Made by a program: the position numbers and the translations under genes. A stretch of DNA of 45,844 nt from Alphaproteobacteria bacterium (GTDB taxonomy: Bacteria; Pseudomonadota; Alphaproteobacteria; JABAAW01; JAHZMA01): NCBI GenBank assembly GCA_022599575.1, contig JAHZMA010000032.1:1-45844 (forward strand). Direction: 5' to 3'. The stretch's first letter is position 1. Each line of letters starts with the position of its first letter. Below the pieces are notes generated by a model, which was not told the DNA's origin, did not search any database, and worked only from the letters and a program-made list of their open reading frames with translations. This document shows, in pieces, positions 3,790-10,626 of this stretch.

Positions 3790-4266
3790 ATGAAAAACGC
3801 AATCATTCAATCCATTGAGAACGATTATATTAAAAAAGAAATTCCTGAATTTTCACCGGGCGATAATGTTCGGGTGATGGTGAAAATCGTTGAGGGCACT
3901 AATTCGCGCGTGCAAAGCTATGAAGGTGTGTGTATTGCGCGCAAAAATGCTGGAGTCGGCAGTAGCTTTACGGTGCGTAAAATTTCTTATGGCGAAGGGG
4001 TTGAACGTATTTTTCCACTCCATAGCCCAATGATTGATTCCATCATATTGGTGCGGCGTGGCAAAGTGCGGCGTGCTAAACTTTATTATTTACGCGATTT
4101 ACGTGGCAAAGCAGCCCGCATTGTAGAAAAAGTTGTGCGTAATCCCGCCGATGAAGCTGCCAAAAAAGTAGCAAGAAATGCCAAAAAAGCAGAGAAAAAT
4201 GCTAAAAAAGCAGAAAAAGCTGCTAAGGCGAAACCATCGAAAACCCCCAGTGACACTAAAGAATAA
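3790..4266 (+). CDS. rplS: 50S ribosomal protein L19 with basic C-terminal tail
   Basis: Large-subunit protein at the 30S-50S interface. The first 115 residues or so are standard L19: [20 protein letters not shown], then [40 protein letters not shown] and [21 protein letters not shown] Lys/Ala-rich tail with the repeated pattern NAKKAEK extends it to 158 residues. There is no strong ribosome-binding site before the ATG. The stop overlaps the leuC start (TAATG), so leuC is translationally coupled. Separation from trmD by about 1.25 kb suggests that it may now need its own promoter; TATAAA at 3714-3719 is a possible -10, without a clear -35. Confidence 0.97.
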
Positions 4267-5669
4267 TGGCACAGACATTATTTGATAAAATCTGGCAAAA
4301 CCACCTTATCCATACCCAAACCGATGGCACAGCGATTCTGTATATCGACCGCCATTTGGTGCATGAAGTTACCTCACCACAAGCATTCGAAGGCTTACGC
4401 AAAAGCGGACGTAAATTGCGTCGCCCCGAAGCCACTTTGGCGGTTGCCGATCATAACGTGCCCACCAGCAAGGGGCGTGGTAATGGCATTGAAGATGAGG
4501 CCAGCCGTATCCAAGTGGAAACGCTTGAAAAAAATTGTCGCGATTTTAACGTTGAATATTTTGATATGAGCGATATCAGGCAAGGCATTGTGCATATTAT
4601 AGGACCAGAACAAGGCTTCACCCTACCGGGCATGACGATTGTGTGTGGTGATTCGCATACCTCAACCCATGGCGCATTTGGTGCATTGGCATTTGGTATT
4701 GGCACATCGGAAGTAGAACATGTGCTTGCCACGCAAAGCCTGCGTCAAAGCCGTGCCAAAAACATGAAAGTAGAAGTGAGTGGCACATTGCCGATTGGCG
4801 TTACCGCAAAAGATATCGTGCTTGCCATTATCGGCAAAATCGGCACTGCTGGTGGCAATGGGCATGTGATTGAATATTGTGGCGATGCGATAACGGCACT
4901 CTCGATGGAAGGGCGTATGACTGTGTGTAACATGACGATTGAAGCAGGTGCGCGCGCAGGCTTAATCGCCCCTGATGACACCACTTTTGCCTATCTTAAA
5001 GATAAAAAATTAGCACCAAAAGGCGCAGATTGGGATAAGGCAGTCGCCTATTGGCAAACATTGCCAAGCGATGCAGATGCCCATTATGATAAAGAAATCA
5101 CCTTAGATGCTGCTGATATTGCACCGATTGTTAGTTGGGGCACATCACCTGAAAATGTGGTGCCGATTACTGGCAAAGTGCCATCTCTTGATATGTTTGA
5201 AACCGAACATCAGCGCAATGCGATTAAACGCGCACTTGATTATATGGGTTTGCAAGAAGGCATGAAAATGCAGGATATTACGATTGACCGTGTATTTATC
5301 GGTTCTTGCACCAATGGCAGAATTGAAGATTTGCGCGAGGCGGCAAAAATCGCCAAAGGCAAAAAAGTTGCGACCACTGTAAGTGCAATGGTGGTGCCAG
5401 GGTCAGGATTGGTGAAACAGCAAGCCGAACAAGAAGGGCTTGATAAGATTTTCATCGATGCTGGTTTTGATTGGCGCGAACCCGGTTGTTCTATGTGTTT
5501 GGCAATGAATGCCGATAAATTGGAAGCAGGCGAGCGATGCGCTTCAACCTCTAACCGTAATTTTGAAGGCAGGCAAGGGCGCGGTGGGCGCACCCATCTG
5601 ATGAGTCCTGCGATGGCGGCAAGCGCGGCAATTACTGGGCATCTCACCGATGTGCGCGAGGTGCAGTAA
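4266..5669 (+). CDS. leuC: 3-isopropylmalate dehydratase large subunit
   Basis: Aconitase-family [4Fe-4S] enzyme that, with LeuD, isomerises 2- to 3-isopropylmalate in leucine synthesis. Signature segments: [19 protein letters not shown] near residue 130, [25 protein letters not shown] with the first cluster cysteine, and [10 protein letters not shown] with the other two. The 467 residues are the normal bacterial length. The ATG overlaps the last base of the rplS stop. leuD begins one base after the leuC stop, and leuB follows, giving a leuCDB unit behind the ribosomal genes as in many alphaproteobacteria. Confidence 0.98.
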
Positions 5670-5670
5670 C

Positions 5671-6267
5671 ATGCAAGCCTTTACCGAATTAAACGCAATC
5701 GCCGCTCCGTTTGACCTGATGAATGTCGATACTGATATGATTATCCCGAAACAATTCTTGAAAACTGTTAAGCGCGATGGTTTGGGTGTGAATCTATTTG
5801 ATGAAATGCGCTACGATATGCAAGGCAATGAAATTGAAGATTTTGTGCTGAATCAAGCCCCCTATCGCAACGCGCAAATATTGGTAACAGGCGATAATTT
5901 CGGCTGTGGTTCAAGCCGCGAACATGCGCCTTGGGCATTGGCGGGCTTTGGCATCACTGCCATCATCGCCCCTAGCTATGCCGATATTTTCTATAATAAT
6001 TGCTTCAAAAATGGCGTATTACCGATTGTTTTACCAGAAACACAAGTGGCAGAAATCTTAAAACATATTCCGCAAAATCCTAATATGGCGATTATTCTTG
6101 ACGCGCAAACCATAACGCATGGTGATAAAACTTACAGTTTTGATGTTGACCCATTCCGCAAAAAATGCCTGTTAGAAGGGCTTGATGATATTGGGCTCAC
6201 CTTGCAACATGCAAGCAAACTTGATGCGTTTGAACAAAAATATCTTGGCGATAATGTTTGGATTTAA
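5671..6267 (+). CDS. leuD: 3-isopropylmalate dehydratase small subunit
   Basis: Swivelling-domain subunit that completes the active site of isopropylmalate isomerase. Markers are [16 protein letters not shown] near the N-terminus, [17 protein letters not shown] around residue 75 and the [16 protein letters not shown] segment. The frame is open back to a GTG at 5650 inside leuC, but ATG 5671, which follows GAGGTG at a suitable distance, gives the usual N-terminus and 198 residues. It starts one base after the leuC stop, fitting obligatory stoichiometric expression of the two subunits. Confidence 0.97.
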
Positions 6268-6285
6268 CGATATTTAGAGGAAATA

Positions 6286-7377
6286 ATGCCTAACATTTTA
6301 CTATTAGCAGGCGATGGTATCGGACCTGAAGTGATGGCGCAAACAAAGCGCGTGCTTGAATGGGCAAGCGATAAAGCATCGCTTAATTTCACTTTTCAAG
6401 ACGCACTGGCAGGCGGTGCTTCTTACGATGCACATGGCACGCCATTAACTGACGAGGTGTTAGAATCTGCGCTTAATGCTGATGCGGTGATATTAGGTGC
6501 GGTGGGTGGCCCTGATTACGATAATGTGGAGCGCCATTTGCGCCCCGAAATTGCCTTATTAAAATTACGCAAAGAACTTGATTTATTTGCTAATTTACGC
6601 CCTGCCATCACCTACCCTTCACTGGCAAATGCTTCTAGTCTCAAGCCAGAATTGGTGAGCGGGCTTGATATTTTAATCGTGCGCGAACTCACCTCTGGCG
6701 TGTATTTTGGCACACCACGTGGCATGGAAACATTGCCCGATGGCACGCAAAGATGCGTGGATACGCAATCTTACACCGAAGCTGAAATCAGCCGTATCGC
6801 CCATGTCGCATTTGAATTGGCAAAACAGCGCAATAATTTGGTGCATTCAGCTGAAAAAGCTAATGTGATGGAAACGGGCGCGTTTTGGCGCAAAATTGTG
6901 ACTGAAACCCACGCAAAGCATTTTTCTGATATTACACTAGAACATATTCTTGCCGATAATTGCGCGATGCAGTTGGTGCGTTGCCCGAAACAATTTGATG
7001 TGTTGGTAACTGATAATCTGTTTGGCGATTTACTATCCGATGTTGCCGCCATGCTAACGGGCTCGCTGGGCATGTTGCCATCAGCATCGCTGGGCGCACC
7101 TGATGTAAATGGCAAACGCCGCGCCATGTATGAACCTGTGCATGGTAGCGCGCCTGATATTGCGGGCAAAAATATCGCCAACCCGATTGCCACCATCGCC
7201 TCGTCCTCTATGATGCTGCGTTATTCATTTAATTGTGAGCAAATTGCCAACAAAATTGACAAGGCAATAGAAACCGTGTTAGATAATGGTTTACGCACAG
7301 CTGATATTGCTGGTGATAATGATAGGTCAATATCAACCACCGATATGGGTGATGCTATTTTGCAGGCGTTGACATAA
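6286..7377 (+). CDS. leuB: 3-isopropylmalate dehydrogenase
   Basis: NAD-dependent oxidative decarboxylase of 3-isopropylmalate, third step of the leucine branch. The family is clear from [15 protein letters not shown] at the N-terminus, GAVGGPDYD, substrate-binding arginines in [31 protein letters not shown], the metal and NAD segments [20 protein letters not shown], and [20 protein letters not shown]. The 363 residues match the family. A GAGG site lies 7 bases before the ATG. It is the last leucine gene here; leuA is not in the window. Confidence 0.98.
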
Positions 7378-7393
7378 AATTGAGAGAGTGATT

Positions 7394-8218
7394 ATGACAC
7401 ATGCTACTTTAATTGATGAGGCACGAGGTAAACTTATTGTTGCACTTGATGTTCCTAACATAGATTTAGCAAACGAAATGATTGACAAATTAGGTGATTC
7501 TGTTGTTTTTTATAAAATCGGCATGGAGCTTATTTATCATGGTGGGTTAGATTTAGCGAAAAAGTTGAAAGAGCAAGGTAAAAAGGTTTTTATCGATGCC
7601 AAATTGCACGATATTCCGCGCACTGTATTAGCTGCCGCCCGTAATATCGAAAAATATGAAGCTGATTTACTCACATTGCATTGTAATTCTTCTGCCTATC
7701 GGGCATTTGAGCAATATCGCGCTGAAAGCGGGAAAAGTAATATGAAATGGTGTTTTGTAACAGTGTTGACATCAGAAGATGATAGAGATTTAGGCAAAAT
7801 GAAAATTCGTAGAACAGCTAAATTCCATGTAAAAGAATTGGCGGTAGAAGCAATAAAACAAGGGGCAGATGGCATTGTTGCATCGGCACAAGAAGCAGAA
7901 TCTTTACGCAAAGACGATGATTTAAAAAATAATGAATTTATCATTATCACGCCCGGTATTCGTCCAGAGGGAAGTTCTCATAACGACCAAAGACGCGTTA
8001 CCACACCAACAAATGCAATTCAATCAGGTTCGGATTATCTTGTGGTTGGCAGACCAATTATTCAAGCGGATAACCCTAAAGATATGGCTGAAAAAATTGT
8101 TGAAGAAATCGCTGATGCTCTTGCAGTAAAAAAGAATATTCCTAACAATGTCTATACGATACAGCGTAACAACACATCAATGCTACGTCACGAAAAACTA
8201 CTCATGGCAAATGCGTGA
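7394..8218 (+). CDS. pyrF: Orotidine 5'-phosphate decarboxylase
   Basis: Decarboxylates OMP to UMP, last step of pyrimidine synthesis. From ATG 7394 the protein has 274 residues. The catalytic array is intact: K41 in FYKIGMEL and the D-x-K-x-x-D motif DAKLHD with D68, K70 and D73. The phosphate-binding end is present as ITPGIRPEG and DYLVVGRPI. A GTG six bases upstream is also in frame; ATG is preferred because GAGAG precedes it at normal spacing. It follows leuB by 16 bases and is followed by a paralogue that has lost part of this motif. Some parts are less conserved (LHCNSSAYRAFEQYR in place of the usual MxxVHxxGG type), so this is a divergent but apparently functional member. Confidence 0.9.
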   Translation: MTHATLIDEARGKLIVALDVPNIDLANEMIDKLGDSVVFYKIGMELIYHGGLDLAKKLKEQGKKVFIDAKLHDIPRTVLAAARNIEKYEADLLTLHCNSSAYRAFEQYRAESGKSNMKWCFVTVLTSEDDRDLGKMKIRRTAKFHVKELAVEAIKQGADGIVASAQEAESLRKDDDLKNNEFIIITPGIRPEGSSHNDQRRVTTPTNAIQSGSDYLVVGRPIIQADNPKDMAEKIVEEIADALAVKKNIPNNVYTIQRNNTSMLRHEKLLMANA

Positions 8219-8233
8219 TAAGATGGCGATGTG

Positions 8234-9334
8234 ATGCAAGACCCTCATGACAGATTGATTGTTGCTTTAGATGTTGATAATATTCAACGCGCATGGGAAA
8301 TTGTTGATAGATTAGATGATAATGTTAGTTTTTATAAAATAGGTGCAGAACTTATTTATAATAAAGGGTTAGAATTAGCGCAAACCCTTAAAAAAGAAAA
8401 TAAAAAAATTTTCATAGATGCACAACTGATTGGGTCTCCGCGCACTGTATATGCGGCAGCCAAAAATATTGAGTTGATGGGTGCCGATATTCTCACCTTA
8501 CATGGCAATCATTCCTGCTTTCAAGCAATAGAAGCTTACCGCAAAAAACGCGGCTATAGCAGTATGAAGCTATGTTGCATTACCGCGCTGACATCTGAAA
8601 GCGAGGCTGATTTGCGTGCCTTACATCAGTTGGCAGATGATATTGATTTACCAACATATATAGAGAATATTGCATATCAAGCCCATCAAGCTGGTGCTGA
8701 TGGGGTGGTGGCTTCGGCACGCGAAGCGCGTAATATTCGACAAAAAATGGGCAGTGAGTTTTTGATTATCACGCCCGGTATTCGCCCTAAAAATAGCGCC
8801 AATATTCATAAAAGTGACGACCAAAAACGCGTTACCACCCCTGCCGATGCCATTCAAGCGGGCGCAGATTATCTGGTGGTGGGGCGACCAATTACCAATG
8901 CCGACGACCCTAAATTGGCGGCGCAAAATATCATCGACGACATCGAAAAAGCGATGGAAGGCACTATCGCTTCTGGCAAACAGCATCCCGCACACACAAT
9001 AATGCCACCCATGATGCCGCCACCCATAACAGCGCGCAAAAAATTCAAAATTATTCAGCCCGCAGATGAAAAAAAAGATTTAAGCATTCCGCATAAAATG
9101 TTTCAACAACCCGCAACGCGCCCATCGCAATCAGTCCCATCACCTGTTGTGATAAAAAAAGAAGAAAATAATCATCCGAAACATGATTATTCACCTGATA
9201 TGATACCACCGCGCAGAAACCATCCCGAAAAAAAAGATGAAAATGTGCCACAATGGCAAGAGGTAAAACCAGAAAAACGCCCAACAAATATACCAACGGG
9301 CGCAGGCTATAAGTCTAAATGGCAATCTGATTAA
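8234..9334 (+). CDS. Catalytically degenerate orotidine decarboxylase paralogue with a proline-rich C-terminal tail
   Basis: Residues 1-245 or so are clearly homologous to the preceding PyrF: LIVALDVDN, FYKIGAELIY, LTLHGNHSCFQ, ITPGIRPKN and DYLVVGRPITNADDP. The D-x-K-x-x-D catalytic motif reads IDAQLIGSPRTV, so lysine is now Q64 and the second aspartate G67, while D62 and K35 remain. The phosphate-binding loops are kept, so ligand binding may survive without decarboxylation. From about residue 250 a 110-residue disordered-looking tail follows, rich in Pro, Lys, Glu and Met (TIMPPMMPPP), with no known domain. It starts 15 bases after pyrF (GTG 8231 is also possible) and ends 11 bases from the convergent CorC gene. 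Likely a tandem duplicate that changed role; function unknown. Confidence 0.85.
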   Translation: MQDPHDRLIVALDVDNIQRAWEIVDRLDDNVSFYKIGAELIYNKGLELAQTLKKENKKIFIDAQLIGSPRTVYAAAKNIELMGADILTLHGNHSCFQAIEAYRKKRGYSSMKLCCITALTSESEADLRALHQLADDIDLPTYIENIAYQAHQAGADGVVASAREARNIRQKMGSEFLIITPGIRPKNSANIHKSDDQKRVTTPADAIQAGADYLVVGRPITNADDPKLAAQNIIDDIEKAMEGTIASGKQHPAHTIMPPMMPPPITARKKFKIIQPADEKKDLSIPHKMFQQPATRPSQSVPSPVVIKKEENNHPKHDYSPDMIPPRRNHPEKKDENVPQWQEVKPEKRPTNIPTGAGYKSKWQSD

Positions 9335-9345
9335 TATTTATTATC

Positions 9346-10626
9346 TTAATTTTCTTTTGTTGGTTCAGGCGGGGTGATTTGTAACGATAAGATGCGCGTT
9401 TTTTCAGCTTTTAAAATCTTAAATCGGAAACCAAAAAACACAAACCGTTGGTCTTTTTTTGGTAAAATCCGTGCCTCATGAATTACCAATCCCGCAATGG
9501 TAGTGGCATCATCATCAGGCAATTGCCAACCTAATTCACGGTTAAGGTCGCGAATTGCCACATTGCCATCGACAATATAGCACCCATTACGCTTTTCTAA
9601 ACCCGGCACATCGGCATCACTTTCATCTATGATATTGCCAACAATTTCTTCTAATACATCTTCCAATGTAACAATCCCCAAAAACACACCATATTCATCA
9701 ACCACCACCGAAAGATGCTCCTGCCGTTTTTGAAAAGATTTTAACTGATATTTTAATAAAGCAGTTTCTGGCACAAACCACGGCTTACCCGCCATTGCCA
9801 AAACATCTTTACGTGTCATTTTGCCTTTCTGGCGCCTAAATTCACCCAATAATTGTTTCGCATTCACAACCCCGATAATTTCTTCGATATTATCATCAAA
9901 TAGTGGAAAACGCGAAAAAGGACTATCCATCACATCATCAACCATTTGCGATACATCACTATTCAAATCAAGCATTTTCACTTCACTACGATGCACCATC
10001 ACTTTAGAAACATTAACATCTTCTAGGTCTAAAATTGAATTGAGCATTTTTTTTTCATCATCTGACGGCAAAGTGTTATCGCGCATTTCAATCGCACCGC
10101 GCAAAATTTCGGTGCTGCTATCATTATCATCGCTAATAGTAGTTTTATGCAAGCCAAAGGGACGCAATAAAAGCCACATCACCGCTTGCACGATTAATAA
10201 AATCGGAAATAATAAAAACAACAATAATCGCATCAATCTGGCAATACGGAGTGAAATAGTGTCAGCATATCTTACTGCAATCATTTTTGGCAAAATTTCA
10301 GCAAATAACACAATTAAAACAGTCATAATTAAAGTGGCGTAAACCACCCCCTTGCCACCAAATATGCCAATCAATAACGAAGTTGTAAGCGATGATGCCA
10401 GAATATTAACAAAATTATTGCCCAGCAAAATCGCCGCAATCAGTCGATCCATACGCTTTTTGAGGGCGATTAAAATAATCGCGCGTTTATTGCCGCGTTT
10501 GGCATCTAAATAGGGGCGCGCCGATGATGCGGTGATGGCGGTTTCAGACCCCGAAAAAAAGCCAGAAATTACAATCAATACCAACACGATAAGAATCGTG
10601 GTGATGATTTCATTTGTGCTTATCAT
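9346..10626 (-). CDS. CNNM/CorC-HlyC-family membrane protein (DUF21, CBS pair, CorC domain)
   Basis: Integral membrane protein of the hemolysin C/CorC group, related to Mg/Co efflux factors. The 426 residues show in order: an N-terminal hydrophobic helix with FFSGSETAITAS (the DUF21 signature), two or three further membrane segments up to about residue 145, a CBS pair (VMVHRSEVKMLDL to EEIIGVVNAKQLL, then FVPETALLKYQLKSFQ to VDEYGVFLGIVTLEDVLEE) and a C-terminal CorC domain from about residue 345 (YIVDGNVAIRDLNRELGW). Its ATG overlaps the aroB stop (ATGA), so it is coupled to the aroK-aroB operon, an arrangement common in alphaproteobacteria. The substrate cannot be told from sequence. Confidence 0.92.
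   Translation of the reverse strand: MISTNEIITTILIVLVLIVISGFFSGSETAITASSARPYLDAKRGNKRAIILIALKKRMDRLIAAILLGNNFVNILASSLTTSLLIGIFGGKGVVYATLIMTVLIVLFAEILPKMIAVRYADTISLRIARLMRLLLFLLFPILLIVQAVMWLLLRPFGLHKTTISDDNDSSTEILRGAIEMRDNTLPSDDEKKMLNSILDLEDVNVSKVMVHRSEVKMLDLNSDVSQMVDDVMDSPFSRFPLFDDNIEEIIGVVNAKQLLGEFRRQKGKMTRKDVLAMAGKPWFVPETALLKYQLKSFQKRQEHLSVVVDEYGVFLGIVTLEDVLEEIVGNIIDESDADVPGLEKRNGCYIVDGNVAIRDLNRELGWQLPDDDATTIAGLVIHEARILPKKDQRFVFFGFRFKILKAEKTRILSLQITPPEPTKEN

Follow-up and report, generated by a model that had tools for sequence, protein, structure and literature searches.

A tandem pair of pyrF genes

The window, i.e. the whole stretch of 45,844 nucleotides that was analysed, carries two adjacent genes of the OMP decarboxylase (OMPDC) family, here called pyrF1 and pyrF2, which are the only PF00215 genes in the genome. 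The features of the locus are as follows.

4266..7377, + strand: leuC-leuD-leuB, directly upstream of pyrF1
7394..8218, + strand: pyrF1, OMP decarboxylase of 274 aa with intact DAKLHD and a short C-terminal extension (profile matches, alignment)
8219..8233, + strand: gap of 15 bases between the pyrF1 stop and the pyrF2 ATG (12 if the start is GTG 8231)
8234-9334, + strand: pyrF2 open reading frame, ATG at 8234 (GTG 8231 also possible), 366 aa, no internal stops
8234..8971, + strand: pyrF2 barrel domain, OMP-decarboxylase fold, residues 1-246 (profile matches, AlphaFold, Foldseek)
8417..8437, + strand: altered catalytic turn of pyrF2, D62-A-Q64-L-I-G67-S68, canonically D-x-K-x-x-D-I (alignment)
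8972..9331, + strand: Pro/Lys-rich tail of pyrF2, residues 247-366, predicted disordered (AlphaFold, composition, codon usage)
9346..10626, - strand: gene of a CBS/CorC-like membrane protein, convergent, a conserved right border

The order leuB-pyrF-corC is common to order-level relatives, which have a single pyrF there. The spacing from leuB to pyrF1 is 16 bases, no terminator-like sites were found on the + strand from 7100 to 9600, and pyrF1 and pyrF2 are likely to share one transcript, possibly with translational coupling. None of the neighbours (leucine genes, corC, aroB, aroK) indicates a regulatory target of pyrF2.

Like pyrF1, pyrF2 passes the curated cut-offs of the PyrF models: it matches PF00215 (3e-47, 161.8 bits), and scores 226.9 bits with the NF001273 PyrF equivalog (cut-off 193) and 158.6 with TIGR01740 (cut-off 92.3). 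An AlphaFold2 model, built from an input alignment of 19 sequences that included viral-contig homologues, has pLDDT values mostly above 90 for the barrel up to about residue 246, and its top PDB match in Foldseek is 1dbt, the Bacillus subtilis PyrF with UMP (E 5e-21). Thus, by both sequence and fold (PF00215, NF001273, Foldseek), pyrF2 belongs to the PyrF family. Beyond the barrel, nearly all of residues 252-366 fall below pLDDT 50; proline (21/123) and lysine (16/123) are the commonest tail residues, and homologues of the tail were found neither elsewhere in the genome nor in Pfam. The tail is unlikely to stem from read-through into intergenic DNA, because in L006, an order-level relative, pyrF and the convergent gene lie only about 80 bases apart.

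The damage to pyrF2 is confined to the catalytic turn

We aligned pyrF1 and pyrF2 with 54 PyrF domains: one is clostridial, and the remaining 53 come from other genomes of the class. In the motif region pyrF2 reads DAQLIGSP where pyrF1 reads DAKLHDIP, a change made by substitutions alone, with no indels in the motif. All 54 PyrFs agree at seventeen positions; pyrF1 keeps every one of them and pyrF2 keeps 15, the two losses being the catalytic lysine (Q64) and the second aspartate (G67), both in the catalytic turn. At the 27 positions conserved to at least 95%, pyrF2 again departs at Q64 and G67 alone. At the 50 positions conserved to at least 85%, I68S, V116I and two positions at which pyrF1 also deviates are added, and outside the turn pyrF2 has fewer such departures than pyrF1 (3 vs 5). 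A census of comparison PyrFs with a readable motif found D-x-K-x-x-D in 158 of 159 and D-x-K-x-x-G in the remaining one, which is a second PyrF copy of another genome, and the lysine was absent from none. Together, the three conservation levels and the census indicate that the damage is restricted to the catalytic turn, and the clustering of the two losses there is more than chance. Ligand-binding residues of PyrF (D13, K35, T71, Q197, R218 and others) are present in pyrF2, which also keeps D62, H90, T120/S121, P181, R184, R199 and G217. Thus, pyrF2 has the fold of an enzyme family without that family's conserved catalytic residues, a mark of a pseudoenzyme.

These results bear out most of a first-pass annotation of this DNA, which had described an intact frame and an OMP-decarboxylase barrel in the second copy, a DAQLIG motif with the lysine changed to Q and the second aspartate to G, and preserved phosphate loops. 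It had also noted a disordered-looking, proline-rich tail of 110 residues, of which the predicted disorder and the richness in proline hold, and the length is corrected to about 120 residues (approximately 247-366). Assembly or sequencing error as the source of the motif change is ruled out by several independent substitutions and the absence of frameshifts.

Evidence that pyrF2 is an old and maintained copy

Maximum-likelihood phylogeny places pyrF1 and pyrF2 as sisters (support 100/98), and their clade stands beside the one pyrF found in the other family of the order. Since relatives carry one pyrF in the leuB-pyrF-corC setting, the simplest reading is that pyrF2 arose by duplication on the lineage of this genome. 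A horizontal origin is ruled out by the sister grouping.

The two branches are equally long (0.63 and 0.62 changes per site for pyrF1 and pyrF2), and pairwise comparison gives dN 0.46, dS 1.38, which is near saturation, and a dN/dS of about 0.33. Synonymous codon choice in both the barrel and the tail of pyrF2 fits the neighbouring genes, a fit matched by none of 1000 synonymous randomisations. The equal branches, the intact frame and the codon adaptation argue against a decaying pseudogene, and that pyrF2 is an ancient, maintained copy is well supported by these comparisons. Maintenance by selection, a further mark of a pseudoenzyme, is thus indicated by the branches, the codon adaptation and the dN/dS of the paralogue pair, the last to be read with dS near saturation. 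The gene is known from one draft genome, the only member of its family in the set analysed: no orthologues were detected in 385 genomes of the same class, six genomes of the order, viral contigs, plasmids or phages, and a peptide-pattern scan of genome contigs returned as its sole match an ordinary clostridial PyrF (L033), which is no orthologue. Among plasmids and chromids the best hits with a name are from Methylobacterium, Shinella and Sinorhizobium, and the class is probably Alphaproteobacteria.

Probable loss of catalysis with a retained ligand pocket

In yeast OMPDC the mutations D91A, K93A and D96'A each leave activity undetectable and K93C lowers it more than 10^8-fold; D96' is supplied by the second subunit, and OMPDC of every organism reportedly carries the D-x-K-x-x-D motif (PMC12874384). 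The three yeast residues correspond to D62, Q64 and G67 of pyrF2. That alanine mutants at either of the two changed positions are inactive argues that pyrF2 is very probably a maintained pseudoenzyme, and judging from its residues we consider it highly likely that PyrF2 performs no OMP decarboxylation at a physiological rate.

In the Methanothermobacter thermautotrophicus enzyme, K72A costs about 10^5 in activity and lowers the dissociation constant for UMP to the same extent (PMC12395307). This mutant, crystallised with a bound nucleotide analogue (2zz2), resembles PyrF2 in lacking the catalytic lysine and still binds nucleotide; unlike PyrF2, a natural protein with Gln and Gly in the turn, it was engineered in the laboratory, keeps Asp75' and has no tail (PMC12395307). 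Human OMPDC in which the equivalent lysine was acetylated had 0.06% activity and yielded a structure of the Michaelis complex. Glutamine is a common mimic of acetyl-lysine. The approximately 10^5-fold tighter binding of UMP by K72A favours a role in which PyrF2 would bind UMP or OMP without turnover, and by this analogy PyrF2 is probably still a ligand-binding protein. However, the tight binding was measured with Asp75' present, whereas PyrF2 has glycine there and serine in place of the following isoleucine; because this aspartate is also a ribose contact, its loss may have lowered the affinity of PyrF2 for UMP.

A proposed role in pyrimidine synthesis

In PyrF2 the proton-donor lysine has become Gln, the cross-dimer aspartate Gly and the following isoleucine Ser, while the OMP/UMP pocket is otherwise retained, and the protein has gained a tail of some 120 residues that is predicted to be disordered. 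We propose that such a protein would close over UMP or OMP without turning it over, as a ligand-gated switch, and would regulate or tether pyrimidine synthesis through its tail or through pairing with PyrF1. This switch is put forward tentatively, at slightly less than an even chance. The explanation as a whole, an ancient, maintained pseudoenzyme that would not decarboxylate OMP and would act as a ligand switch regulating or tethering pyrimidine synthesis, appears to us evenly balanced between right and wrong. More broadly, action as a sensor, as a regulator or inhibitor, or as a scaffold is plausible. Our result agrees here with the earlier suggestion of a non-catalytic role, such as ligand sensing or scaffolding, in that loss of catalysis with the pocket kept is well supported (alignment, published mutants); the specific role is plausible. 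Most specifically, and doubtfully, PyrF2 might be a natural UMP sensor derived from a disarmed OMP decarboxylase, a tight UMP trap whose closure would be read by the disordered tail or would poison PyrF1 via heterodimers, giving feedback on the final reaction of UMP synthesis.

Since the second aspartate of each site comes from the partner subunit, a heterodimer of PyrF1 and PyrF2 would be crippled at both sites, one without Asp' and the other without lysine. With both composite sites crippled, heterodimers would be an inhibitory form, and a maintained non-inhibitory role would need PyrF2 homodimers.

Pairing with PyrF1 and other alternatives

A less likely alternative is that PyrF2 is first of all an obligate or inhibitory heterodimer partner, whose incorporation would switch PyrF1 off or stabilise larger assemblies through the tail. 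It draws on the adjacency of the two genes, 15 bases apart, on the origin of the active-site aspartate in the other subunit (PMC12874384), and on the precedent of an inactive dihydroorotase chain required by the aspartate transcarbamoylase (ATCase) of Pseudomonas aeruginosa (PMC7053772). Moreover, E100 and Y102 are common to both copies and absent from the 54 other PyrFs, and lie in the region matching interface peptide 94-110 of the M. thermautotrophicus enzyme (interface peptides taken from PMC12395307), although residues common to both copies may predate the duplication. Taken together, the putative interface segments are no more alike between the copies than the rest (23/52 vs 100/179, p=0.16). 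Outside the mutated turn, region 63-80, one of three regions compared, has above-average identity (11/13, p=0.02). Helix 69-80 is conserved between the copies, and the other putative segments are average.

On the side of pyrF1 (7394-8218), we observe that it shares unusual residues solely with pyrF2, among them E100, Y102 and C114 (pyrF2 numbering), which indicates that the active copy has also diverged in the helix-4 region.

It is rather improbable that PyrF2 has been neofunctionalised into an enzyme that uses the pocket for another reaction, with some other phosphorylated nucleotide or sugar as substrate. The barrel is a functionally plastic fold, and the phosphate- and ribose-binding residues as well as D13, K35 and D62 are kept. 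However, the hexulose-phosphate synthase/ketogulonate-phosphate decarboxylase (HUMPS) models score far below their cut-offs (TIGR03128 37.8 vs 200 bits, PRK13306 24.3 vs 250), these enzymes also use the D-x-K-x-x-D residues, and the turn of PyrF2 has gained no acid/base groups. Decay into a pseudogene would fit the loss of two catalytic residues and the presence of pyrF2 in one genome only, but is very unlikely for an unbroken frame of 366 codons that has evolved along a branch as long as that of the active copy, departs less often than pyrF1 from conserved positions outside the turn and is codon-adapted into its tail. That PyrF2 is still an active OMP decarboxylase by way of a compensating residue is most improbable of all: catalytic residues can be relocated in pseudoenzymes (PMC10211241) and the family models still call the protein PyrF, but the turn has gained neither a Lys nor an Asp, yeast OMPDC with alanine at either position shows no detectable activity (PMC12874384), and an intact pyrF1 adjoins.

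Relation to known systems

PyrF2 shares with PyrF (PF00215; NF001273; TIGR01740) the fold, the barrel length, the nucleotide-binding residues and the synteny, and lies in direct tandem with its paralogue, the pyrF of the same genome; it differs in having neither the catalytic lysine nor the second aspartate and in its predicted disordered tail of 120 residues. The annotation as OMP decarboxylase is therefore unsuitable for a homologue without the defining catalytic motif, and automatic annotation will label it a second PyrF.

By analogy, PyrF2 may work most like two pseudoenzymes of biosynthetic pathways, the P. aeruginosa dihydroorotase chain and Arabidopsis PDX1.2. The latter differs in being a vitamin B6 synthesis enzyme, in coming from a plant and in its larger oligomer. 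It is alike in being a pseudoenzyme paralogue without catalysis, one that regulates the biosynthetic pathway in which its active sisters work (PMC6829848). The pseudo-dihydroorotase of P. aeruginosa aspartate transcarbamoylase is likewise an inactive homologue of a pyrimidine-pathway enzyme, but the enzyme that needs it to be active is a different one, ATCase, whereas pyrF2 sits beside its own active parent (PMC7053772). Searches of the open-access literature yielded no account of an inactive paralogue or natural pseudoenzyme of OMP decarboxylase, and as far as these searches show pyrF2 would be a pseudoenzyme of pyrimidine synthesis that has not been described before. OMP decarboxylase serves as a model for extreme catalysis, and pyrF2 offers a natural experiment on it, a barrel without the chemistry that has been long maintained with its motif broken and nothing else comparably conserved lost.

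Two genomes of another family (f82) each carry a dispersed second PyrF paralogue besides a canonical copy (L082 in G085, L085 in G368). In L082 the second PyrF has the motif DMKLNG, with the lysine kept and the second aspartate lost, and PAIRP in place of PGIRP; it is possibly an independent pseudo-PyrF. Like pyrF2 it is an extra copy beside a canonical one with the second aspartate changed to Gly, but it keeps the lysine, is dispersed rather than in tandem and has no such tail, and its same-family counterpart L085 is canonical.

At the pyrF locus of two order-level relatives (L006 in G002, L008 in G003), the lone pyrF follows a SocA/Panacea antitoxin-like domain (PF13274) in the same reading frame, an unusual fusion. 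Two others (L009 in G004, L011 in G001) have just a short N-terminus there, possibly a remnant, and Panacea domains occur in all six genomes of the order.
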